From positions 1 through 26,809 of IMG/VR virus record IMGVR_UViG_3300037493_002817: 26,809 nucleotides of DNA, one strand, 5' to 3'. Positions 4,482-16,538 of the stretch are shown here, piece after piece. This stretch comes from a virus. The notes under the pieces were generated by a model. That model did not search any database. It saw nothing but the letters and a program-made list of their open reading frames with translations, and was not told where the DNA came from. Numbering within the stretch: position 1 is the stretch's first letter; each line of letters begins with the position of its first letter. The translations under genes and the position numbers were made by a program.

Positions 4482-4505
4482 CCGACTATCAGCCGTCGGT
4501 TTTTT
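4482..4505 (+). terminator. Rho-independent terminator-like hairpin
   Basis: CCGAC (4482-4486) pairs with GTCGG (4495-4499) across an 8-nt loop and is followed by six T. No coding gene lies upstream on the plus strand, so it would end either read-through transcription or a short untranslated RNA starting after the TATAGT at 4388. The stem is only 5 bp. Confidence 0.45.
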
Positions 4506-4520
4506 ATATCGATCGATATA
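4505..4520. repeat. 16-bp dyad TATATC-N4-GATATA, copy 1
   Basis: TATATCGATCGATATA is a perfect palindrome here, flanked by T tracts on both sides. It is copy 1 of seven in the window, all between 4505 and 8487. It lies just upstream of the weak promoter of the next gene. Confidence 0.75.
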
Positions 4521-4522
4521 TT

Positions 4523-4550
4523 TTGAGGATTGGCCAAGGTATTGTATAGT
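4523..4550 (+). promoter_or_regulatory. Possible promoter for the 198-aa early gene
   Basis: TTGAGG (4523-4528), a 16-bp spacer and TATAGT (4545-4550) form a moderate sigma70-like match. Transcription would start near 4557, about 33 bp before the chosen ATG. Confidence 0.4.
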
Positions 4551-5194: not shown

Positions 5195-5216
5195 GCCCCG
5201 GCCAGCCGGTCGGGGC
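5195..5216 (+). other. Stable hairpin without U tract
   Basis: GCCCCGGCC (5195-5203) pairs with GGTCGGGGC (5208-5216) over an AGCC loop: nine pairs including one G-T. It is followed by A-rich sequence, not T, so it is not a classic terminator. It could protect the 3' end of the upstream mRNA or shield the downstream start. Confidence 0.5.
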
Positions 5217-5221
5217 AAAAA

Positions 5222-5237
5222 TATATCATAGGATATA
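5222..5237. repeat. 16-bp dyad TATATC-N4-GATATA, copy 2
   Basis: TATATC-ATAG-GATATA with A-rich flanks, so by flanks it is in the opposite orientation to copy 1. Its GGATA half also lies where the ribosome site of the 41-aa gene would be, 5 bp before the ATG. Confidence 0.7.
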
Positions 5238-5241
5238 AAAG

Positions 5242-6056: not shown

Positions 6057-6088
6057 GTACCCTGTAGTTGATTAGATGTTATGTTTTT

Positions 6089-6104
6089 TATATCAAACGA
6101 TATA
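6089..6104. repeat. 16-bp dyad TATATC-N4-GATATA, copy 4
   Basis: TATATC-AAAC-GATATA with T flanks, in the mRNA leader, 7 bp before the GAGGA ribosome site of the next gene. Confidence 0.75.
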
Positions 6105-6124
6105 TTTTCTTGAGGACCGAACCG

Positions 6125-6802
6125 ATGAAAGCTTCCACCGCCCGCAAGACCGCCCGTGCCAATGTGCGTATGTCTGAAACCTCAAAGCTGGGTTGCCTGT
6201 CTTGGTCCCTGCAAGCACTCGACACTTGCCCCGGTTCTAAAGCTGATGACGGCATGCTGGTGCCCGCATGCTCCGGGTGCTACGCCACCACGGGCAACTA
6301 CCGCTATCCCAACGTCAAAGCCCCGCGCGAGTTCAACCGCACAGACTGGGAACGTGACGCATGGTGCGACGATATGGTCGCTGCGCTTGAGGGTGAGACA
6401 CACTTCCGATGGTTCGACTCGGGTGATATGTACGCGCTCGGGCTGGCTGAGAAAATGTTTAACGTTATGCAACGGACCCCGAACACCCTGCACTGGCTCC
6501 CCACGCGCATGCATAAGTTTGCGAAGTTTCAACCGATCATTGCCGCTATGCAGGCACTGCCCAACGTCATGGTGCGCCCGTCCTCGGACGGCATCGATGG
6601 CACATACACTGCGGGCGTTCACGGATCAACGATCATTCCGACCGCTCAATACAACACCGACGCATTCGTTTGTGGCGCGTACTCGCGCGATGGCAAGTGT
6701 GGCCCGTGCCGTGCCTGCTGGGACAAGACCGTCCCTGTTATTGCATACCCTGCCCACGGCGTGAAGATGGCGAAGGTCATCCGGCTGGCGCTCGCCGCAT
6801 AA
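6125..6802 (+). CDS. GP88-like Cys-rich phage protein
   Basis: The 225-aa product resembles the phage gene-product-88 family. It has a Cys cluster early on (GCLSWSLQALDTCP, then PACSGCYATTGNY, about residues 23-60) and an FRWFDSGDMY segment near 97-106 with an LPTRMHKF segment after it. A second Cys cluster lies near the end (CGAYSRDGKCGPCRACWDK). The two clusters could bind zinc or an iron-sulfur centre; no biochemical role of the family is known to me. ATG 6125 was chosen over an upstream TTG because GAGGA sits 9 nt before it and the TTG lies at the transcription start. It is driven by the promoter at 6028 and flanked by TATATC dyads on both sides. Confidence 0.65.
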   Translation: MKASTARKTARANVRMSETSKLGCLSWSLQALDTCPGSKADDGMLVPACSGCYATTGNYRYPNVKAPREFNRTDWERDAWCDDMVAALEGETHFRWFDSGDMYALGLAEKMFNVMQRTPNTLHWLPTRMHKFAKFQPIIAAMQALPNVMVRPSSDGIDGTYTAGVHGSTIIPTAQYNTDAFVCGAYSRDGKCGPCRACWDKTVPVIAYPAHGVKMAKVIRLALAA

Positions 6803-6803
6803 A

Positions 6804-6819
6804 TATATCCAACGATATA
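6804..6819. repeat. 16-bp dyad TATATC-N4-GATATA, copy 5
   Basis: TATATC-CAAC-GATATA, one base after the stop codon of the GP88-like gene, with A flanks (reverse orientation). Confidence 0.75.
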
Positions 6820-6855
6820 AAAACGAGTCGCGTTAAGCGTGTATCTTTTGCACGC

Positions 6856-7449: not shown

Positions 7450-7456
7450 CCCTTTT

Positions 7457-7472
7457 TATATCGAACGATATA
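7457..7472. repeat. 16-bp dyad TATATC-N4-GATATA, copy 6
   Basis: TATATC-GAAC-GATATA with T flanks, 7 bp after a stop codon and 6 bp before the GAGGA ribosome site of the DUF3150-like gene. No separate promoter is visible here, so it should be transcribed within an mRNA. Confidence 0.75.
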
Positions 7473-7489
7473 TTTTCTGAGGACACACC

Positions 7490-8374
7490 ATGAACGCACC
7501 CAAGATCATCACTATCGCTGACACACACCTCGTTTTCGAATACTCAATCTCCTGCTGGAGTGCAACATCACGCGACAAGCGTGCCTCGACTGAGGTCGAG
7601 AATTCCAAGGGTGCCGAGTCGGGCACCGCATCGGTCAATGTCCACCTGCTGGGCAAGTGCAAAGAGTTGCTTGCGATCCGCAACGTCGAGCAGAACATCC
7701 GCAAAACCATCACCGACACACTGCCTCCGTTCGGGCGTGGTGCTAGCTTGGTGCGATCCCTTCACATGCTGGACTTCGTAGGCAAGACCCTCAATCCGTA
7801 TGAGGCCACGTTCAACAAGGCAGCGGATGATTTCGTATCGGTCTACCCATCGTTGGTGGAGCAGGCATACAACCGCCTCGGTGGACTGCTGGACCTGACC
7901 AAGTTTCCCAAGCCCTCACGCATCCGTGAGAAGTTCAGCTTTACATATGCGTTCTTTCCCGTGCCGATGAATGATTTCCGTGTGGCCCCTACAGTCGAGG
8001 CTGCTGCTGATCTTAATAAGTTCTACTCTGACGAGATGGACCGTCGCCTGAAGGATGCCTCGCTCGATGCATGGGAGAAGCTTCGCAAGGGACTGGAGTG
8101 GGCGTCCAACATCCTGACCGACACGGGTGAGGGCAAGGCTCGCAAGATGTACGAGTCCTCGATGAGTAAGTTCATGGGTCTGACCGATCTGCTGAGTGAG
8201 TTCAACCTGACCGACGATCCCAAGCTTGAGGCAGAGCGGCGCAGGCTGGAGGCATTGTTCGCAGGGCGTACCGCTGCGGGTCTGACTGAGGAGTTGAAGG
8301 AGTCCCCCGCTGCACGGGGTGAGCTTAAGGCTCAGGTCGATTCGATCCTGAGTACGCTGGACTTCGACCTGTAA
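7490..8374 (+). CDS. DUF3150-like protein, partner of the MoxR-VWA genes
   Basis: The 294-aa product has an N-terminal stretch HLVFEYSISCWSATSRDKRA (residues 13-32). A mid-region follows with NPYEATFNKAADDFVSVYPS and FPKPSRIREKFSFTYAFFPVP, then a long helical, probably coiled-coil C-terminal half. This order fits the DUF3150 family as I remember it, whose members are often encoded beside MoxR-type ATPases and VWA proteins; the biochemical role is unknown. The start has GAGGA 8 nt upstream. Next downstream, after a promoter, comes the MoxR ATPase. The family call is from pattern memory plus context. Confidence 0.6.
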   Translation: MNAPKIITIADTHLVFEYSISCWSATSRDKRASTEVENSKGAESGTASVNVHLLGKCKELLAIRNVEQNIRKTITDTLPPFGRGASLVRSLHMLDFVGKTLNPYEATFNKAADDFVSVYPSLVEQAYNRLGGLLDLTKFPKPSRIREKFSFTYAFFPVPMNDFRVAPTVEAAADLNKFYSDEMDRRLKDASLDAWEKLRKGLEWASNILTDTGEGKARKMYESSMSKFMGLTDLLSEFNLTDDPKLEAERRRLEALFAGRTAAGLTEELKESPAARGELKAQVDSILSTLDFDL

Positions 8375-8406
8375 AAGATCGCGTTTCGTTTTTCGGATAA
8401 CTTTGA

Positions 8407-8436
8407 TTGACAATAGTCGTATAACTATTGTATAAT
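8407..8436 (+). promoter_or_regulatory. Consensus promoter with built-in dyad, for the MoxR-VWA operon
   Basis: TTGACA (8407-8412), an 18-bp spacer and a perfect TATAAT (8431-8436): the best promoter in the window. A perfect dyad, ACAATAGT-cgtata-ACTATTGT (8410-8431), fills the spacer and touches both boxes, an ideal operator position. Confidence 0.85.
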
Positions 8437-8471
8437 TCTAGCTGTTGTTTGTTGTTCGGTGTCTGCCCTTT

Positions 8472-8487
8472 TATATCAACCGATATA
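8472..8487. repeat. 16-bp dyad TATATC-N4-GATATA, copy 7
   Basis: TATATC-AACC-GATATA in the leader of the MoxR gene, followed by T-rich sequence and an extra AGATATCT palindrome (8493-8500) before the ribosome site. Confidence 0.75.
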
Positions 8488-8514
8488 TCTTTTAGATATC
8501 TCTGAGGAACTTTC

Positions 8515-9621
8515 ATGAACGTACCTTTCATCTCGCTCGCTTCTGCTACCCAATTCATCGTTGACTGCGGTGCCGATCAAACGATCCTGTTCGAAGGCGA
8601 GCCGGGTATCGGCAAGTCCAGCATGCTGTCGCTGCTAGCTAAACAATTCCCCGAGCATCAGGTGGTGTACTTCGATGTGCCCGCTATGGACGTGCCCGAT
8701 TTTGGCATGTTCATGCCCAATAACGAGGAAGGCACACTCAAGTTCTTCCCCAACGAGTTGTTCGGTCTGACCGGCAGGGACAAGAACAAGCCCAAGATTT
8801 ACATGTTCGATGAGATCGGCAAGGTTCAGGGTCCGATGCACACAATGATGAACCGCGTCATGCTTGAGCGGATGCTTGGACCGTACAAGCTGCACCCTGA
8901 TTCACGCATCTTCGCTACATCTAATCTTTCTACGGACGGGGTGGGTGACAAGCTGCTGTCTCACACGGTTAACCGCATCACTCGGGTCAAGGTACGCAAG
9001 CCTCGCTTCACTGAGTGGTACGACTGGGCCGTTGCATCGGGCAAGGTTCATGCTGCACTGATTGCATGGGCTAAAGAGAACGCATGGATCGAGGAGTCAT
9101 ACACGGACGGCAAAGATGTGCGTGACCCCGCAGTGACTGAGAAAGAGCGCGAGGTTCGGCAGATGATCTTTAACCCGGCCACACCGGGTCAGCCCTTCGT
9201 TAGCTGGCGTTCTCTTACAGCATGCACGCCGTTCGTTGAGAACCGTGAGAAGTATTCGCATGAGGACATGCTGGCTGTACTGGCTGGCACCGTGGGACTG
9301 GCCGCTGCCTTGTCGATGATGTCATTCTTCAAAGTTATGGACAAGATGGTGTCGTTCGACCGCATCGTGGCTGACCCGACCGGCGTGCCGGTGGTGGATA
9401 CGGGCGCTGTGCCCTTGATGCAGGTGCTGAACGCAATCAACCGCGTGAAGCATGACCATGAGTTGACGCAGTTCCTGATCTACCTCGACCGCATGGACCG
9501 GGCCGAGTTGTCGATGGTGTTCTTCTCCAAGCTTATGAAGTCGCCCAAGAAAGATATCGGTGGGCGCAACCGTCGAGTCATCGAGTGGATGGCCGACCCC
9601 AAGAACGCAGCACTGATCTGA
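8515..9621 (+). CDS. MoxR-type AAA+ ATPase
   Basis: The 368-aa product has a Walker A GEPGIGKSS (residues 28-36), a Walker B IYMFDE (95-100), and a sensor-1-like FATSN (133-137). The following LLSHTVNRITRV (147-158) supplies candidate arginine-finger residues. This is the organisation of MoxR-family ATPases, which form rings and act with VWA-domain partners to remodel or activate protein complexes. The C-terminal half is less recognisable. GAGGA lies 7 nt before the ATG. A consensus promoter and a TATATC dyad lie just upstream, and the HEXXH/VWA gene follows after 11 bp. ATPase class is certain; client is unknown. Confidence 0.88.
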   Translation: MNVPFISLASATQFIVDCGADQTILFEGEPGIGKSSMLSLLAKQFPEHQVVYFDVPAMDVPDFGMFMPNNEEGTLKFFPNELFGLTGRDKNKPKIYMFDEIGKVQGPMHTMMNRVMLERMLGPYKLHPDSRIFATSNLSTDGVGDKLLSHTVNRITRVKVRKPRFTEWYDWAVASGKVHAALIAWAKENAWIEESYTDGKDVRDPAVTEKEREVRQMIFNPATPGQPFVSWRSLTACTPFVENREKYSHEDMLAVLAGTVGLAAALSMMSFFKVMDKMVSFDRIVADPTGVPVVDTGAVPLMQVLNAINRVKHDHELTQFLIYLDRMDRAELSMVFFSKLMKSPKKDIGGRNRRVIEWMADPKNAALI

Positions 9622-9632
9622 TCGGAGGATAT

Positions 9633-10802
9633 ATGGACTACGCATCAATGCCAGCAAAGATTCGCATCGACCGCTCACGGTCGCAGGCTATGCGTCACCC
9701 CGAGTTCTGTCTCATGGCAGGGGTGATGATGATCGGTCGGGTGTACATCGAGGCAGGTGTACCCACCGCTGCGACGGATGGTGTCAATACATACTTTGGC
9801 CCGCGCTTCACCGAGTCACTGACCGAGCAAGAGGTCAACTTCCTTGTGCTGCATGAGGAGGGACACAAGGCGTTCCGTCAGTTGTTTATGTACAGGCACC
9901 TGTGTGCTATCGACAAGCAGCGCGCCAACATGGCGATGGACTACATCATTAACGGGTGGATCATCGACACTGATCCCAAGGGTACGTTTGCTCGCATGCC
10001 CAAGGGTGGGCTGTATAACCCCGACTGGTCAAAGCTTACTGTTCAGGAAGTGTTCGACCTTCTTAAGGGGCAGGGCGGGCAAGGTCAAGGTCCGGGTGAA
10101 GGTGATGGCCCCCTCGATAATCATGACTGGGAGTCTGCGTCCAAGCTGACCGAGGAGGAAGAGAAGGATCTTGCTAAGGAGATCGACGGTGCGCTGCGCG
10201 AGGGCACCATCCTTGTAGGTAAGGCTCAGGGAAAGATCAACCGTCGCATCACCGAGATGCTTCAGCCCAAGATCGACTGGCGTGAGGTGCTGCGTGAGTT
10301 TGTGAACACCCTTGCATCGGGTAAGGATCTGGCTTCATGGCGTCAGTTCAACCGTCGCTATACATCGTCCGGGCTTTACCTTCCTACAACTATCTCGGAG
10401 TCAATGGGTGAGATCGCTATCGGCATCGATACGTCAGGCTCTATTGATGAGGAGCAGTTGGCCGCAGCAGTGAGCGAGTTCGTATCTATCTGTGAGTCGG
10501 TCAAGCCTAGCCGGGTCCGTGTCTTGTGGTGGGACACGCATGTAGCCAAGGAGCAAGTGATCGAGGGCGATACATCAAAGCTTGCTCATACGCTTGAGCC
10601 TGCCGGTGGTGGCGGCACCCGTGCAGGGTGTGTGTCGGACTACATCCTCAAGAAAGGTTATACGCCCGAGGCGGTGGTCATGTTCACCGATGGGTACTTA
10701 GAGGATCGGATCAAGTGGGACATTGCAACCCCAACGATGTGGGTTGTTAACGGGGCAGATAACTTCAACGCACCGCGCGATGGTCGCGTGGTCAACTACT
10801 GA
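9633..10802 (+). CDS. Metallopeptidase-like VWA protein (DUF2201 type)
   Basis: The 389-aa protein has two parts. The N-terminal part contains HEEGH (residues 74-78), a HEXXH zinc-metallopeptidase signature, in LVLHEEGHKAF. A Gly/Gln-rich linker (145-160) follows. The C-terminal part is a von Willebrand A domain with the MIDAS motif DTSGS (266-270), a Thr in GGGGT (329) and Asp in FTDG (353). This fits the DUF2201 metallopeptidase-plus-VWA architecture. VWA proteins are the standard partners of MoxR ATPases; here the VWA would be the adaptor. Whether peptidase activity is retained is unknown. ATG 9633 was chosen because GGAGG lies just before it; an earlier ATG lies inside the ATPase gene. 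Confidence 0.88.
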   Translation: MDYASMPAKIRIDRSRSQAMRHPEFCLMAGVMMIGRVYIEAGVPTAATDGVNTYFGPRFTESLTEQEVNFLVLHEEGHKAFRQLFMYRHLCAIDKQRANMAMDYIINGWIIDTDPKGTFARMPKGGLYNPDWSKLTVQEVFDLLKGQGGQGQGPGEGDGPLDNHDWESASKLTEEEEKDLAKEIDGALREGTILVGKAQGKINRRITEMLQPKIDWREVLREFVNTLASGKDLASWRQFNRRYTSSGLYLPTTISESMGEIAIGIDTSGSIDEEQLAAAVSEFVSICESVKPSRVRVLWWDTHVAKEQVIEGDTSKLAHTLEPAGGGGTRAGCVSDYILKKGYTPEAVVMFTDGYLEDRIKWDIATPTMWVVNGADNFNAPRDGRVVNY

Positions 10803-10811
10803 GGAAGAACA

Positions 10812-11867
10812 ATGACCATTGCACAACAGATGAAACACTTCGCTGGCTTGGCTAAGGTTAGGTACGCCGAGCAAGTTAATGGGGCACCCGAATCTAAGAC
10901 TCTCTTGGACAGCATGACTCAGGGTTTCGTAGACGCTGAGAAAATCCTCGCCTGCCTTAACAAAACTATCGGCGCAGAGGTGGTGGGTGCGGGACATGGC
11001 GGGCATGGGTCATACGTGTTCGGCAAAGACGGCGTGCCGTGGGGTGCGCTCATCCGTAGGACTAAGACTAACTCAAGGACTGGAGAGTCCAAGCCTAGCT
11101 GGGAGCTTTACTCTAGGCACATCAACAAACAAAAAGGGACACAGGAAGTAACCAAGTCGGGCAGTGTGACGGGGCTGATTAACTACATCCGCAAAGGTAT
11201 CGTCAAGCCCGACACGATGGAGGATATGTTTGCTATCAACCTAGTCGCATCGAGCAAGGTCAAGAACCTAGACATCGGCAAGACAAAGGGCCATGTAGCC
11301 GCTATCGACGGCGAGGCGCGGCATGACGTTTACTGGTACATCCGTGACATGCTGGACGGTCACAGCCCTGAGCTAACCAAGCCCATGCTGGACTGGGAGA
11401 AGTACGCTAGGGAAGGGTACGAGAAACATTTCAAGATGACGCAGGAGACTGAGCGTACCAAGCAGGCGTTCCGTACCAAGAGCATCATCCTCACCGAGAT
11501 GCCGTTTGCCTGTGACAAGGCGATCCACGTTCAGTTCATGACCTTGCCCGTTGGGGTAGAGCCGCAGATCACCGATGGTGGGTTCATTAGTAAGATCGAG
11601 GACTTGGTTGAGTATCCGCACATAACTGGTATCAGTAATCTAGTGAAGCTTGAGCGTGGGGGGAAAGACGATATCTTCGACGCCCTCGATGACTATGACT
11701 ACATTGCCCAGTACAACCTCATAAGGTTCCGTGCGACAAACAATACGTTTATCCACACCGTTTCGTTGGTGTTCCCCGCTGAGTTTATGGAAGCAGCACC
11801 GCAAGAACCTGAAAAGATTGCTGTGGATAACAACGGCAAAACTGACATCTTCTCGTTGGACATCTAA
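10812..11867 (+). CDS. Hypothetical protein of the MoxR-VWA operon, 351 aa
   Basis: I do not recognise this 351-aa product. It has a His/Gly segment (AGHGGHGSYVFG, near residues 59-70), a charged middle with RTKTNSRTGESKPSWELYSR, and an acidic stretch before the end (DDIFDALDDYDYI). It lacks membrane segments and known catalytic motifs. It starts 9 bp after the VWA gene with GAGGAAG upstream and should be co-transcribed with the ATPase and VWA genes. It could be a client or targeting subunit of that machine; this is inferred from position only. Confidence 0.75.
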   Translation: MTIAQQMKHFAGLAKVRYAEQVNGAPESKTLLDSMTQGFVDAEKILACLNKTIGAEVVGAGHGGHGSYVFGKDGVPWGALIRRTKTNSRTGESKPSWELYSRHINKQKGTQEVTKSGSVTGLINYIRKGIVKPDTMEDMFAINLVASSKVKNLDIGKTKGHVAAIDGEARHDVYWYIRDMLDGHSPELTKPMLDWEKYAREGYEKHFKMTQETERTKQAFRTKSIILTEMPFACDKAIHVQFMTLPVGVEPQITDGGFISKIEDLVEYPHITGISNLVKLERGGKDDIFDALDDYDYIAQYNLIRFRATNNTFIHTVSLVFPAEFMEAAPQEPEKIAVDNNGKTDIFSLDI

Positions 11868-12176
11868 ATGGACAAAACGTCGGTAAGGGTCAGGGACTCT
11901 AACTATGTTGCTGGTGCGTTTTCTTTTTACCTGATCGGTGACCCGAGTTCTGCGCCGATGCGTAACTGGCCCAAGTTCGTTCTCAAGTACGAGGATGTAC
12001 CGACGATGATCCGAGGCCGGCTCATGATGCTCAAGCTCACAAACGAGTACACGTTTGTGGATCAGGTAGGTCTTAACACTGGATGGCCAAATAATGAAAT
12101 GATCTTGATGCTTTTTGACAATGAACACGATGAACTGTGCAAAGTAGGACTTGAAAAAAACTGTCGCGGCTTTTAA
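11868..12176 (+). CDS. Hypothetical protein, 102 aa
   Basis: Unrecognised 102-aa protein whose ATG directly follows the previous stop (TAAATG), with no ribosome site of its own, so translation is probably by reinitiation. It is mixed alpha/beta in appearance (VAGAFSFYLIGD, EYTFVDQVGLNTGWPN) and has two Cys near the C-terminus. It is the last gene of the MoxR-VWA operon before the membrane microproteins. Confidence 0.65.
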   Translation: MDKTSVRVRDSNYVAGAFSFYLIGDPSSAPMRNWPKFVLKYEDVPTMIRGRLMMLKLTNEYTFVDQVGLNTGWPNNEMILMLFDNEHDELCKVGLEKNCRGF

Positions 12177-12697: not shown

Positions 12698-12909
12698 AAA
12701 ACGCCCGCGTCGGTATGTGGGTCACCCACTTTGGACGGCATGGAGTAGTGGATTCAATCGGCCTGTCCTGTATCTACGCGGTGGTGCGGTTCCCGTCATC
12801 TGACGGGTTCCCTTTCCCACAAAAGGACGTTGTTCGTATCAGCGAGTTGAAGCGGTACAGGCAAAAGAAAACAGTGCAGACCGCTGAACATGAACCCGCC
12901 CCTTTCTAA
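12694..12909 (+). CDS. Small hypothetical protein, 71 aa
   Basis: The 71-aa product (MKNARVGMWVTHFGRHGVVD...) looks like a compact beta-rich fold: GMWVTHFGRHGVV and YAVVRFPSSDGFPFPQKDVVRI recall small SH3-like or KOW-like barrels. No active-site motif is visible. It overlaps its neighbours at both ends (ATGA start; 20 bp at the end), typical of coupled phage genes. Function unknown. Confidence 0.6.
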   Translation: MKNARVGMWVTHFGRHGVVDSIGLSCIYAVVRFPSSDGFPFPQKDVVRISELKRYRQKKTVQTAEHEPAPF

Positions 12910-13111
12910 GCTGCACCCAACTAAGATCCTGATCCTGCGTGTACTAGAAAAGAATGGAACACAAACCATTCAGCAAGTTAGTGATGAGGTCCGCGTCGGT
13001 TATACCGGCGTTGGCCGTGCGCTACGTCAGCTTTGGGATCTTGGGTTGGTAACTGAGAGTTTTATGGGCGGTAAATCTTATTGGAGGATACGAGATGAGC
13101 GACCAAAATAG
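12890..13111 (+). CDS. Winged-helix DNA-binding protein, 73 aa
   Basis: The 73-aa protein fits a single winged helix: KILILRVLEKNGTQTIQQVSDEV, a turn, then YTGVGRALRQLWDLGLVTESF as recognition helix and SYWRI as wing strand (residues about 12-68). Such domains bind DNA as dimers, so it is a candidate regulator of the phage promoters, possibly of one of the dyad families. It overlaps both neighbouring genes and has a weak ribosome site. The fold is inferred from the helix-turn-helix-wing pattern. Confidence 0.65.
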   Translation: MNPPLSKLHPTKILILRVLEKNGTQTIQQVSDEVRVGYTGVGRALRQLWDLGLVTESFMGGKSYWRIRDERPK

Positions 13112-13358
13112 ACCACCACTAACGGAAGAAGAGATTGCGGCTTTATTTAATAAAGTGATTAAAGAACGACACGCTTATCCCGAGAGGCGGTTTAGAGATT
13201 TTGCTCGCTACGTCGAGCGAGCGCATGGGATAACAGGGCCGGAACTGTTCGGAGAAGAAAAACAACTCATTCATGCCGAAGGCTGTTGGACATGGGGTCC
13301 GTCGCACTATGCCTGCGCGTGTCGTGAGTTGGCTTTAGCTAAGGGGTGGGCGAAATGA
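13095..13358 (+). CDS. Phage protein with PLTE...AHGI motif, 87 aa
   Basis: The 87-aa product has an N-terminal helical segment, PPLTEEEIAALFNKV...FARYVERAHGI (residues 7-46). It is clearly like the C-terminal part of the 111-aa protein at 14345, so the two are related. A short C-terminal part, HAEGCWTWGPSHYACACREL, has three Cys and two His and could bind a metal. GGAGG lies 7 nt before the ATG. Function unknown. Confidence 0.65.
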   Translation: MSDQNRPPLTEEEIAALFNKVIKERHAYPERRFRDFARYVERAHGITGPELFGEEKQLIHAEGCWTWGPSHYACACRELALAKGWAK

Positions 13359-13561
13359 CCCGCGACGACATTATTAAGATAGCGAGGCAGTCAGGTGTGC
13401 TGTCGGGATATGAATCTGAGTTGTTTCAACGCTTCGCCAAACTTGTAGCCGCTGCCGAACGTGAAGCCTGCGCTCGGATTGCCGATGAAGTTGGCGATGA
13501 CGATGAAGACTGCCACGCATGGGTTGCAGCCGATGCTATCCGCGCGAGGGGGGAGGAATGA
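13355..13561 (+). CDS. Conserved small phage protein, 68 aa
   Basis: The 68-aa product (MTRDDIIKIARQSGVLSGYE...) carries the AAAEREACARIAD helix and ends in AIRARGEE, a combination common in short proteobacterial phage proteins of unknown role. ATG 13355 makes an ATGA overlap and has AGGGG 6 nt upstream; the upstream GTG is not needed. It also overlaps the following gene by 4 bp. Confidence 0.65.
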   Translation: MTRDDIIKIARQSGVLSGYESELFQRFAKLVAAAEREACARIADEVGDDDEDCHAWVAADAIRARGEE

Positions 13562-13848
13562 CCACCTACAGCAAAAACTTGGGGAAGCCCAAGCCCCTAA
13601 AGGAGATCGTCCTTGAGATGCTTGCGAAAGAGCCGTTGAGTATCGACGCAGTAGCGTCTAAGCTGTTCACCCCGCGTGAGAAGGTGCGCGTGGCAATGGA
13701 GAAGTTGGTCGCTAAAGAACTCATTGTTTTTGTTGGCAAGACACCGGGCAACCGGTACATCTACAAAGCAGTAGAGAAAATTACCCTACCCCCTAACACT
13801 AAGACCGACCCCGCTGCGGCGTGGATGTTTAATAAGGTGCTGAGATGA
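13558..13848 (+). CDS. Winged-helix-like small protein, 96 aa
   Basis: The 96-aa protein has a helix-turn-helix-like core: KEIVLEMLAKEPLSIDAVASKLF, then PREKVRVAMEKLVAKELIVFVG, then NRYIYKA as a wing (residues about 15-69). This suggests a winged-helix DNA-binding domain, the second in this gene chain. ATG 13558 has an excellent GGGGGGAGG just upstream and overlaps the previous stop; an upstream in-frame ATG at 13519 is less likely. Targets are unknown. Confidence 0.6.
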   Translation: MTTYSKNLGKPKPLKEIVLEMLAKEPLSIDAVASKLFTPREKVRVAMEKLVAKELIVFVGKTPGNRYIYKAVEKITLPPNTKTDPAAAWMFNKVLR

Positions 13849-14081
13849 AAGACAACATCAACCCTCAGCATTACCGCAACGGCGAGATCGAGTGCATTGA
13901 TGCGCTGGCAGCAGCAACAGTAAACAAACCCGGTATTCAAGCCGTGTGTGTTGCGAACGTAATTAAATATCTTTGGCGGTACGAATCCAAGAATCGTTTG
14001 GAGGATGTACGCAAAGCACAGTGGTACCTTGAGAAACTTATTGAGGAGCTAGAGAAACATGACACCCGAGGGCGCAGTTAA
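13845..14081 (+). CDS. DUF3310 protein (SaV-like nucleotide-kinase family)
   Basis: The 78-aa protein has the DUF3310 signature. It starts NPQHYRNGEIECIDAL (residues 6-21), then GIQAVCVANVIKYLWRYESKN with the conserved IKYLWR, and ends LEDVRKAQWYLEKLIEE. This family is common in phages and is annotated as a nucleotide-kinase-like protein, though its activity is not well established. It overlaps the previous gene by 4 bp and the next by 23 bp. Confidence 0.88.
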   Translation: MKDNINPQHYRNGEIECIDALAAATVNKPGIQAVCVANVIKYLWRYESKNRLEDVRKAQWYLEKLIEELEKHDTRGRS

Positions 14082-14352
14082 GAAGAAAGTCACAACAATC
14101 CTTAAGTCCGTTGGCGCTTATTACTTCTACCCGGTGACGGGTGGGTTTGGGCGCAGCGGGGTGCCGGATATCGTATGTTGTTTAAACGGAAACTTTATCG
14201 GCATCGAGTGCAAGGCTGGGGATAACAAAGCTACTGCACTGCAACTTAAGAACCTTGAAGAGATTCAGGCAGCAGGTGGGTTCGCGTTCATTGTTAACGA
14301 AGACAACATCGACGCGCTTGAACGTGTATTAAAGGTGATGGTGGATGAATAA
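14059..14352 (+). CDS. VRR-NUC domain nuclease
   Basis: The 97-aa product is a complete stand-alone VRR-NUC (PD-(D/E)XK superfamily) nuclease. FGRSGVPDIVCCLNGNFIGIECKAG (about residues 29-53) supplies the acidic and Lys catalytic residues (D37, E49 and K51), followed by the conserved Gln in TALQLKNLEEIQAAGG. Stand-alone phage VRR-NUC proteins are thought to cut branched or structured DNA, such as replication or packaging intermediates. The start lies inside the DUF3310 gene; the gene sits shortly before the DNA polymerase. Confidence 0.92.
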   Translation: MTPEGAVKKKVTTILKSVGAYYFYPVTGGFGRSGVPDIVCCLNGNFIGIECKAGDNKATALQLKNLEEIQAAGGFAFIVNEDNIDALERVLKVMVDE

Positions 14353-14680
14353 AACCGTCGATAACCATTTGCTAGAAGTTGCGTATGCGATGGGCCGCGC
14401 AGATCAGCGCGAAGCTTTAGCTAAAACTAATTTTTACCCTCCCCCAGTGGCATGGAGATGGAAACGCTGGGACAAGAAGTTTTGGAATTATGCAGAAAGA
14501 GAGGTAGTTATCCGGCGGGATGAATATGATTGTGAGCCACTGTATGCTGAGCCACCTCAACGATTGCCTCTAACAGAACAAGAACTCAGAAAGTTGTGGG
14601 CATCACTGGAAGACAGGCGTGCATTTGCATTTGCCCGCGCGGTAGAAGAAGCCCACGGAATTATAGAAAAAGGTAAATGA
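14345..14680 (+). CDS. Phage protein with PLTE...AHGI motif, 111 aa
   Basis: The 111-aa product begins with a helix (LLEVAYAMGRADQREAL), then a Trp-rich middle (VAWRWKRWDKKFWNYAE) and CEPLYAEPPQ. It ends with LPLTEQELRKLWASLEDRRA...FARAVEEAHGI, the motif also present in the 87-aa protein at 13095. EPLYA-type segments are common in short phage proteins of unknown role. It overlaps the nuclease gene by 8 bp and ends 7 bp before the polymerase gene. Confidence 0.65.
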   Translation: MNKTVDNHLLEVAYAMGRADQREALAKTNFYPPPVAWRWKRWDKKFWNYAEREVVIRRDEYDCEPLYAEPPQRLPLTEQELRKLWASLEDRRAFAFARAVEEAHGIIEKGK

Positions 14681-14687
14681 ATCCCTA

Positions 14688-16538
14688 ATGGATATCTACA
14701 CGATTGACCTTGAGACTTACTACGCTAAGGACTTCTCGCTTACCAAGCAGACAACGGAGGAGTACGTCAATGATCCGCGTTTCGAGGTCATCGGGCTGGC
14801 TATCAAGAAGAACGAAGGTATCACCCAGTGGTACAGCGGCGATGATGTCGCATGGTTTCTGAATAAGTTTGATTTTTCTGAAGCCATGATCGTGTGTCAC
14901 AACACGATGTTCGACGCAGCCATCCTTGCATGGCGCTACGGGGTTAACCCGAAAGTGTGGGCAGATACGATGAGCATGGCGCGATTCGTTCATGGGGTGC
15001 ATGAATCTGCATCCCTTGCCTCACTGTCTCAGAAGTACGGTGTAGGTACGAAGGGTACCGAGGTAGTTAATGCGTTCGGTAAGCGTCGCCAAGATTTCGG
15101 TAAAGATGACTTGGCCCGCTATGCGGAGTACTGCATCAACGACGTTGACCTGACGTATGAAATCTTCACGCAGATGATTGGTGGTGGGTTCCCCAAGAAG
15201 GAACTGAAGATCATCGACCTCACCCTGCGTATGTACATCAACCCCGTGCTGGAGATCGATCAAGGGATACTTGCGCTTAGGCTCAAAGATATCCGCGAGG
15301 AGAAGCAGAAAGCACTGGCATCCATTAAGCAAAGGCTTCAGGTCGTTGACGAGGAAGACGTTCGTAAAACATTGGCTTCCAACAAGCAGTTCGCAAGCTT
15401 GCTAACTTCGTACAACATTGAAGTACCGATGAAGCCCTCCCCGGCTAACCCTGACAATAAGATTCCTGCGCTGGGAAAGAAGGACGCTGGGTTCATCGAC
15501 CTTCAAAAAAACGAGGATGAGTTCATCCAACTTTTGTGTGCAGTGCGGCTTGGCACTAAATCAACGATGGAAGAGGGTCGGGTAGAGAACTTCATGAACA
15601 TTGCCAGCAGGAACACTGGCAAGCTACCGATCCCGCTTAACTATTGTGGAGCGCATACATCTCGGTGGAGTGGCAAGGACAAGATCAACCTACAGAACCT
15701 ACCGAGCCGTGACCCAAAAAAGAAAGCCCTGAAGAACTCTATTGTCGCTCCCTCGGGGCATCTCATCATTGACTGCGACTCTTCGCAGATCGAAGCACGG
15801 GTGCTTGCGTGGTTGGCTGACCAGTCTGATGTGATCGAGGCATTTGCAAACAAGCAGGACGTATACCGTCTGATGGGCGCAGCTATCTACAAGAAAGATC
15901 CTGAAGACATTACAAAAGAAGAAAGATTCCTGTCCAAGACAGTCGTATTAGGTTGCGGGTTCGGCACAGGATGGAAGAAGCTTCAAGCAGAACTGAAGGC
16001 CGCAGGCGTAGAAAAAGACGACGCAACGTGTAAGAGCATCATTAACATCTACCGGGACAAGAACTTTAAGATCGTTCAGATGTGGGATGAGGCAGGCTCT
16101 GCGCTCATGAGCATGGTGCGAAAGGAGTCTTACAGGATCGGTAAGCGGGACTGCCTTGGGTTTGACTCGGATGGAATCCGTTTGCCTAGTGGGTACAAAA
16201 TCTATTACCCCGGCCTTGATGTGAAGATGGAAGGGGAAAAGAAACGCTTCTTCTACGAGAGTCGTAAGGGCAAAGAAAACCTGTGGTACGGAACGCTCAT
16301 TGAGAACGTAGTGCAGGGGATGGCTAGATGTATCGTGGCCGAGCAGATGCTGCTAATATCGAAACGCTATCGACCTGTTCTGACGGTGCATGATGCGGTT
16401 GCCATCGTAGCCCCCGAAGAAGAAAAAGATGAGGCGGTGGCATTCGTTGAATCATGCATGAGCCACGTTCCCAAATGGGCAGCGGGGTGTCCTATTGCCT
16501 GCGAGTCAGGCGTTGGCTATAGCTATGGAGATTGTTAA
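14688..16538 (+). CDS. polA: Family A DNA polymerase with 3'-5' exonuclease
   Basis: The 616-aa replicative polymerase has a DnaQ-like exonuclease first: DLET (D7, E9), CHNTMFDAA (D76) and YCIND (Y148, D152), so proofreading appears intact. In the polymerase domain, motif A is IDCDSSQIEAR (catalytic D364), motif B is R413-K417 with G-FG after it, and motif C is VHDAV (H568, D569). No 5'-3' exonuclease domain is present, as usual in phages. The O-helix residue equivalent to E. coli Phe762 is Leu421, counting four from K417. No clear ribosome site precedes the ATG at 14688. It is followed directly by a small gene (TAAATG). Confidence 0.95.
   Translation: MDIYTIDLETYYAKDFSLTKQTTEEYVNDPRFEVIGLAIKKNEGITQWYSGDDVAWFLNKFDFSEAMIVCHNTMFDAAILAWRYGVNPKVWADTMSMARFVHGVHESASLASLSQKYGVGTKGTEVVNAFGKRRQDFGKDDLARYAEYCINDVDLTYEIFTQMIGGGFPKKELKIIDLTLRMYINPVLEIDQGILALRLKDIREEKQKALASIKQRLQVVDEEDVRKTLASNKQFASLLTSYNIEVPMKPSPANPDNKIPALGKKDAGFIDLQKNEDEFIQLLCAVRLGTKSTMEEGRVENFMNIASRNTGKLPIPLNYCGAHTSRWSGKDKINLQNLPSRDPKKKALKNSIVAPSGHLIIDCDSSQIEARVLAWLADQSDVIEAFANKQDVYRLMGAAIYKKDPEDITKEERFLSKTVVLGCGFGTGWKKLQAELKAAGVEKDDATCKSIINIYRDKNFKIVQMWDEAGSALMSMVRKESYRIGKRDCLGFDSDGIRLPSGYKIYYPGLDVKMEGEKKRFFYESRKGKENLWYGTLIENVVQGMARCIVAEQMLLISKRYRPVLTVHDAVAIVAPEEEKDEAVAFVESCMSHVPKWAAGCPIACESGVGYSYGDC

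Follow-up and report, generated by a model that had tools for sequence, protein, structure and literature searches.

Which genes belong together with the MoxR-type ATPase and the metallopeptidase-VWA protein encoded in IMG/VR virus record IMGVR_UViG_3300037493_002817, and on what clients would their products act? The stretch analysed (the window) comprises 26,809 bases of this record and represents a fragment of a phage genome. An earlier note on this DNA described a five-gene unit, and its five open reading frames (ORFs) were confirmed, all of them read in the same direction (7490-8374, 8515-9621, (9585)9633-10802, 10812-11867, and 11868-12176). They encode a DUF3150-like protein (D), the MoxR-type ATPase (M), the metallopeptidase-VWA protein (V), and two proteins of 351 and 102 amino acids (p351 and p102). 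The unit itself has to be redrawn. The conserved unit consists of three genes, D, M, and V, and not of five: D is separated from the other genes by 140 nt and a promoter, and only D, M, and V travel together elsewhere. We favour, with moderate confidence, a three-part ATP-driven machine that would remodel replication or host proteins and not virion parts, with p351 and p102 outside its core. The features of the module are as follows.

7490..8374, plus strand: D, DUF3150-like protein, 294 aa, third partner of the module (match to Pfam PF11348 below the cut-off; viral homologues; Foldseek)
8407..8436, plus strand: perfect sigma-70-type promoter TTGACA-18-TATAAT between D and M (12/12 match)
8515..9621, plus strand: M, MoxR/midasin-type AAA+ ATPase, 368 aa (phrog_1297; midasin; relative of N4 gp24)
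8596..8619, plus strand: Walker A motif GEPGIGKS of M (intact)
9633..10802, plus strand: V, HEXXH metallopeptidase-VWA protein, 389 aa (PF13203, PF09967, phrog_1314)
9852..9866, plus strand: HEEGH zincin motif of V, residues 74-78 (invariant residues in 40 homologues)
10428..10442, plus strand: MIDAS motif DTSGS of V, residues 266-270, completed by T329 and D353

Linkage of the three genes in phages, plasmids, and bacteria

Scans of IMG/VR with single proteins (V, M, p351, and p102) yielded no relatives. Those of V were retrieved by an alignment-based scan with the VWA family, which gave a viral sample of at least 80 loci. Both the viral and the bacterial samples were drawn with VWA alignments and are not unbiased frequencies. 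Of the 80 viral loci listed, 48 have D beside V. Profile searches revealed the order M-D-V in 42 of these listed loci; the remaining ones include one with D split into two ORFs, one with the order D-M-V (L043), one with the order M-V-D (L036), and three in which the contig ends within D or ahead of it. The earlier note had suggested looking for such co-occurrence in other phages. For D it is present in many of them, and the reading of this locus as a MoxR-VWA pair for remodelling, accompanied by a genuine DUF3150-like partner, is upheld.

Outside phages, D was present in 30 of the 49 bacterial loci retrieved, which belong to Acidobacteria, Burkholderiales, Brucella, a Cloacimonadota bin, and others. 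The reverse question, namely whether V lies next to D, was addressed with 150 Burkholderiaceae genomes. All 13 D hits in these genomes adjoin a VWA gene on the same strand, and only one strong VWA match lacked D. Relatives of D were also found on 38 plasmids. Every plasmid locus inspected carried D together with M and V, mostly with D directly between them. In plasmid pCAR1, a CbbQ-type AAA protein, a bona fide DUF3150 protein (Pfam E 8e-92), and a VWA protein are encoded in this same order. According to the available text of PMC2642839, which names the MoxR and VWA members, the corresponding block of pCAR1 (ORF100-103) is conserved in R478, Rts1, SXT, and R391. The trio is widespread across phages, plasmids, and bacteria. 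Its DUF3150-like third component, which links phages, plasmids, and chromosomes, seems to have been overlooked; DUF3150 was not mentioned in the literature searched.

Families and motifs of the three proteins

The intact HEEGH and DTSGS motifs that the earlier note described in V were borne out, and Walker A and Walker B of M are likewise intact. M matches phrog_1297 in PHROGs (E 7e-41). In Pfam, it falls below the cut-off for AAA_5 (16 vs 22 bits) and slightly above that for AAA (22.2 vs 21.2), and the top PDB match of its family profile is midasin (E 5e-41). Position and alignment relate M to N4 gp24. The motifs kept include Walker A with invariant G33 and K34, Walker B DE at residues 99-100, sensor-1 N137, and a candidate arginine finger, R154. 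The gene for M (8515-9621) adjoins that for V, which begins at 9633. This ATG is most likely the true start of V, rather than the GTG at 9585, because it is preceded by a GGAGGA ribosome site and relatives align there.

V shows matches above cut-off to PF13203 (DUF2201_N; E 3e-21, 76.5 bits) and PF09967 (DUF2201 VWA-like; E 6e-17, 62.4 bits), as well as a match to phrog_1314 (E 5e-74). Residues H74, E75, H78, and D103 are invariant in 40 homologues, and the MIDAS is complete (D266-x-S268-x-S270, T329, D353). In the AF2 model of V (pLDDT 83), the VWA domain aligns to the LFA-1 I domain with Z 13.7. The protein ends with this domain and has no effector domain beyond it. In the V tree, the window protein occupies a long branch, the position of which could not be resolved. 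The public label 'HNH endonuclease' carried by phrog_1314, and also by RefSeq phage records, is misleading: the family is a zincin-VWA family, and family searches with V detected no HNH domain. We flag this label, as it stands in many phage records.

Some 46 viral homologues of D were found beside MoxR and VWA genes among the matches listed. Most viral D proteins are related to D of the window with phmmer E values of 5e-30 to 1e-13, and homology places D in a well-populated family of D proteins. The DUF3150 model was matched at E 0.01 by only 9 of 39 D homologues. An alignment of DUF3150 proteins contained no segment of sufficient conservation to serve for scanning the collection. The AF2 model of D (pLDDT 86) is elongated and helical, and its top Foldseek match is a phage protein named DUF3150 (E 1e-13). 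Comparison of the model with PDB revealed generic helical bundles only, with no specific relative among 1000 chains re-aligned, which does not imply a novel fold. A tblastn search with D gave no match in named phages, while IMG/VR contigs hold many; therefore, named phages under-sample this lineage.

Position of the module and its probable clients

The genes for M, V, p351, and p102 are separated by gaps of 11, 9, and 0 nt. The perfect promoter between D and M occurs once in the window against 0.01 expected. It had been thought to drive the entire unit as the best promoter of the window. The promoter is real, with 12 of 12 positions matching, and can drive M and the genes that follow, but D has to be excluded: the element lies between D and M, 3' of D, and therefore cannot drive it.

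Downstream of the module, genes for PolA, an exonuclease, a g14059-family protein, and an SNF2 helicase are found both in the window and in D-carrying phages. In the latter, the module precedes PolA, the exonuclease, and the SNF2 helicase in conserved order, and the window is arranged likewise. The terminase genes are located upstream of the module in the window, on the opposite strand. A nearer relative, L115, shares with the window the terminase small subunit (42%), g6068 (62%), g14059, PolA, and SNF2 (57%). The entire cassette is missing from it (locus at 12784-16361), and the interval from g6068 to g14059 holds nothing but small ORFs; this interval comprises about 2.6 kb in L115 vs 7.3 kb in the window. 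Gene order in L115 is otherwise rearranged, which makes this an absence of the cassette and not a clean empty site. The trio was also found in none of the 42 loci with g6068 relatives, within the DNA fetched, many of these contigs being short. Because the relative L115 lacks the cassette, this lineage carries the module as an accessory element.

This position bears on the nature of the client. One explanation is that the trio is a virion-assembly chaperone, in which M and V would remodel structural proteins and the peptidase domain would process them in maturation. We consider this unlikely, since the same trio occurs on conjugative plasmids and bacterial chromosomes, where no virions are made, and since the trio of the window leads the replication block, at a distance from the terminase genes and in the opposite orientation. 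An intracellular client is favoured above all because of the occurrence on plasmids and chromosomes, and also because of the location ahead of the replication genes, the host-type promoter, and the middle-gene status of N4 gp24/gp25, which are middle-transcribed (PMC4193335).

Virion assembly has nevertheless been proposed by Iyer et al. for the jumbo-phage pair, with Acidianus two-tailed virus as a precedent, as stated in the available text of PMC7824862, and the roseophage RPP1 encodes some virion proteins, a second structural module, near its gp24/gp25 homologues (PMC4193335). Both facts weigh against the preferred reading of a remodelling machine for replication or host proteins, and so do several properties of the locus itself. 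The match of D to Pfam DUF3150 (PF11348) has E 9e-4 and 19 bits, below the cut-off of 24.9; by the curated rule, D is not a member of DUF3150 and would be called DUF3150-like only. M of the window is divergent, with about 20% identity. Residue 83 of V (9879-9881) is Gln, where at least 90% of relatives have the His of HEXXHxxxxH. Finally, as L115 shows, phages of this type can do without the cassette.

In the machine that we prefer, a phage copy of one common to mobile elements and bacteria, a MoxR-type AAA+ ring would be combined with a zincin-VWA adaptor and the elongated, helical D. On the model of NorQ-NorD and of further MoxR-VWA pairs, V would dock on the ring of M and recognize the client through its MIDAS. 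Hydrolysis of ATP would then pull V, and the client would be reshaped or released; in the cryo-EM study of NorQD, ATP hydrolysis by the ring is coupled to pulling of the VWA protein and its client (PMC13036017). The client may also be trimmed by the peptidase domain of V. Since D was found only beside V in the genomes sampled, its probable role is that of a scaffold or of a dedicated adaptor for the client. Expression of the trio would start from the host-type promoter early or in the middle phase, along with that of the replication genes, and the clients of the trio are most likely replication or host proteins, not parts of the virion. The downstream genes for p351 and p102 would be co-transcribed, lineage-specific, and not part of the core. 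Only tentatively, we extend this to a broader proposal, in which MoxR, metallopeptidase-VWA, and DUF3150 proteins form a dedicated ternary machine that serves mobile elements in general by remodelling a shared replication or host-takeover client. If true, this would be a previously unrecognized general tool of phages, conjugative plasmids, and integrative elements.

Use by phages and plasmids would also be expected from a counter-defence or anti-host machine, which captures a host defence protein and then unfolds or cleaves it. The trio is common to unrelated mobile elements and patchily present among related phages, as would suit this role, but PADLOC gave no clear match (best E 0.03), and N4-like phages have the MoxR-VWA pair as core genes regardless of their host (PMC4193335), unlike most counter-defence genes. 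We regard this explanation as quite unlikely. A reading of the trio as a defence system was dropped, being without PADLOC support.

The features flanking the conserved genes are listed below.

7453..7478, plus strand: palindromic element TTTTTATATCGAACGATATATTTTCT, just 5' of the ribosome site of D
8468..8493, plus strand: palindromic element TTTTTATATCGAACGATATATTTTCT, 5' of M
10812..11867, plus strand: p351, lineage-specific neighbour outside the conserved core (no relatives)
11868..12176, plus strand: p102, lineage-specific neighbour (no relatives)

No relatives of p351 were detected in Pfam, PHROGs, NCBIfam, named phages, the IMG/VR scan, or 107 loci, and none of p102 in the same databases, named phages, the IMG/VR scan, or the loci fetched. 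Co-occurrence of these two genes with MoxR-VWA elsewhere, which was to be checked for the five-gene unit, was accordingly not observed. In D-carrying phages, the two genes after V belong to family X (about 225 aa; at least 37 loci) and family Y (about 299 aa; at least 32 loci). Assignment of p351 and p102 to these families was rejected, as neither hmmsearch --max nor hhalign gave a match. Because they do not match families X and Y, which occupy the corresponding slot, p351 and p102 are best described, from their sequences, as lineage-specific neighbours in a variable slot and not as core components. The gaps of 9 and 0 nt after V do suggest co-transcription, but with no relatives anywhere searched and unrelated genes in their place in other phages, it is highly improbable that p351 and p102 are obligate partners in a genuine five-gene unit.

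One family X gene after V (L028, 9577-10233) shows a weak match, below cut-off, to Nmad5, and is the only member to do so. Nmad5 is a nucleotide-modification associated domain. At least 15 relatives carry a phrog_1040 gene for a peptidase of the HslV family (Ntn hydrolases) a short way downstream of M-D-V, with few genes in between (for example, L045, 10962-11432); it was not found in the window. This peptidase is possibly a second one working with the module.

The palindromic element ATATCNNNNGATAT has six sites in the window (4501-4526, 5207-5240, 6085-6110, 6789-6822, 7453-7478, and 8468-8493), against 0.06 expected, all within 4.5-8.5 kb. Four of the six directly precede ribosome sites, those of D and M included. 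A 98%-identical relative (L167) has four sites at corresponding places, with the stem kept and one centre varied. The element is possibly an operator or an RNA hairpin. At the contig edge (25474-26808, minus strand), a 444-aa fragment matches the C-terminus of phrog_14770, a family of very large phage proteins (3427 positions), and its neighbour order is kept in relatives.

Comparison with known systems

The use of such a pair by a phage, which the earlier note took to be undescribed, has in fact been published, both as the N4 gp24/gp25 core genes (PMC4193335, PMC7650795) and as the jumbo-phage pair (PMC7824862). The N4 genes were listed as core for the N4-like group in 2014 and 2020 and have been core genes of unknown function since that first definition. 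A tblastn search with V retrieved 643 phage records, the top-ranked of which were mostly N4-like. The AAA+ ATPase gp24 and the vWFA protein gp25, core in Schitoviridae, belong to the same families as M and V (phrog_1297 and phrog_1314), with MoxR before VWA, and are located in the non-structural half of the genome. Among named N4-like phages, N4, Presley, and SABI were inspected by profile and, unlike the window, have no DUF3150-like match. The terminase and replication genes of the window, itself a fragment, are not N4-like, and the best relatives of its TerL and helicase lie outside the schitoviruses. RNAP1/RNAP2, the giant virion RNAP, and N4-type replication genes of Schitoviridae were not found in the 26.8-kb fragment. 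The available main text of the CRISPRi-ART paper gives no result for N4 gp24.

In group 2.2 jumbo phages, MoxR adjoins a vWA protein with an N-terminal metallopeptidase domain, as in the window. A third, DUF3150 component is not mentioned in the available text of PMC7824862, and the window is not known to derive from a jumbo phage. The tightly linked third partner and the occurrence on plasmids and chromosomes narrow the possible functions of these pairs and make a purely virion-assembling role less likely.

The block ORF100-103 of IncP-7 plasmid pCAR1 contains the same kinds of genes in the order M-D-V, and its V also has an N-terminal HEXXH motif (HECSH). This V is longer, resembles NorD/CobT, and falls outside DUF2201; the pCAR1 D is a true DUF3150 protein distant from D of the window. 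N4 and pCAR1 offer tractable systems for testing the function of the module.

NorQ-NorD, CbbQ-CbbO, and RavA-ViaA likewise combine a MoxR AAA+ ring with a VWA partner, and a mechanistic model exists (PMC13036017). They are binary, act on known clients, and have no DUF3150 partner; their sequence relation to the window proteins is at superfamily level only. Since known MoxR-VWA pairs insert metals or activate enzymes (PMC13036017), the trio could also be a NorQD- or CobST-like chaperone that inserts a cofactor or metal and so activates an enzyme of the phage or plasmid, such as one modifying nucleotides or DNA. The CbbQ/NorQ C-terminal domain of pCAR1 M, the naming of pCAR1 V as NorD, and the weak Nmad5 match after V in a D-carrying relative would agree with this. 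However, the window lacks the Nmad5-like neighbour, no metalloenzyme stands out as a client, and DUF2201 proteins add a peptidase domain instead, all of which makes this role very unlikely.

The VMAP/iSTAND/FtsH ternary conflict systems (PMC7159879) also combine MoxR and vWA proteins with a third conserved protein. D has no Pfam match to components of these systems, the VMAP profiles themselves not having been run. The third component of the window is DUF3150-like, and V is without the C-terminal effector domains of those systems. Also, the trio of the window type is tied to mobile elements, whereas the VMAP/iSTAND/FtsH systems are tied to multicellular bacteria.

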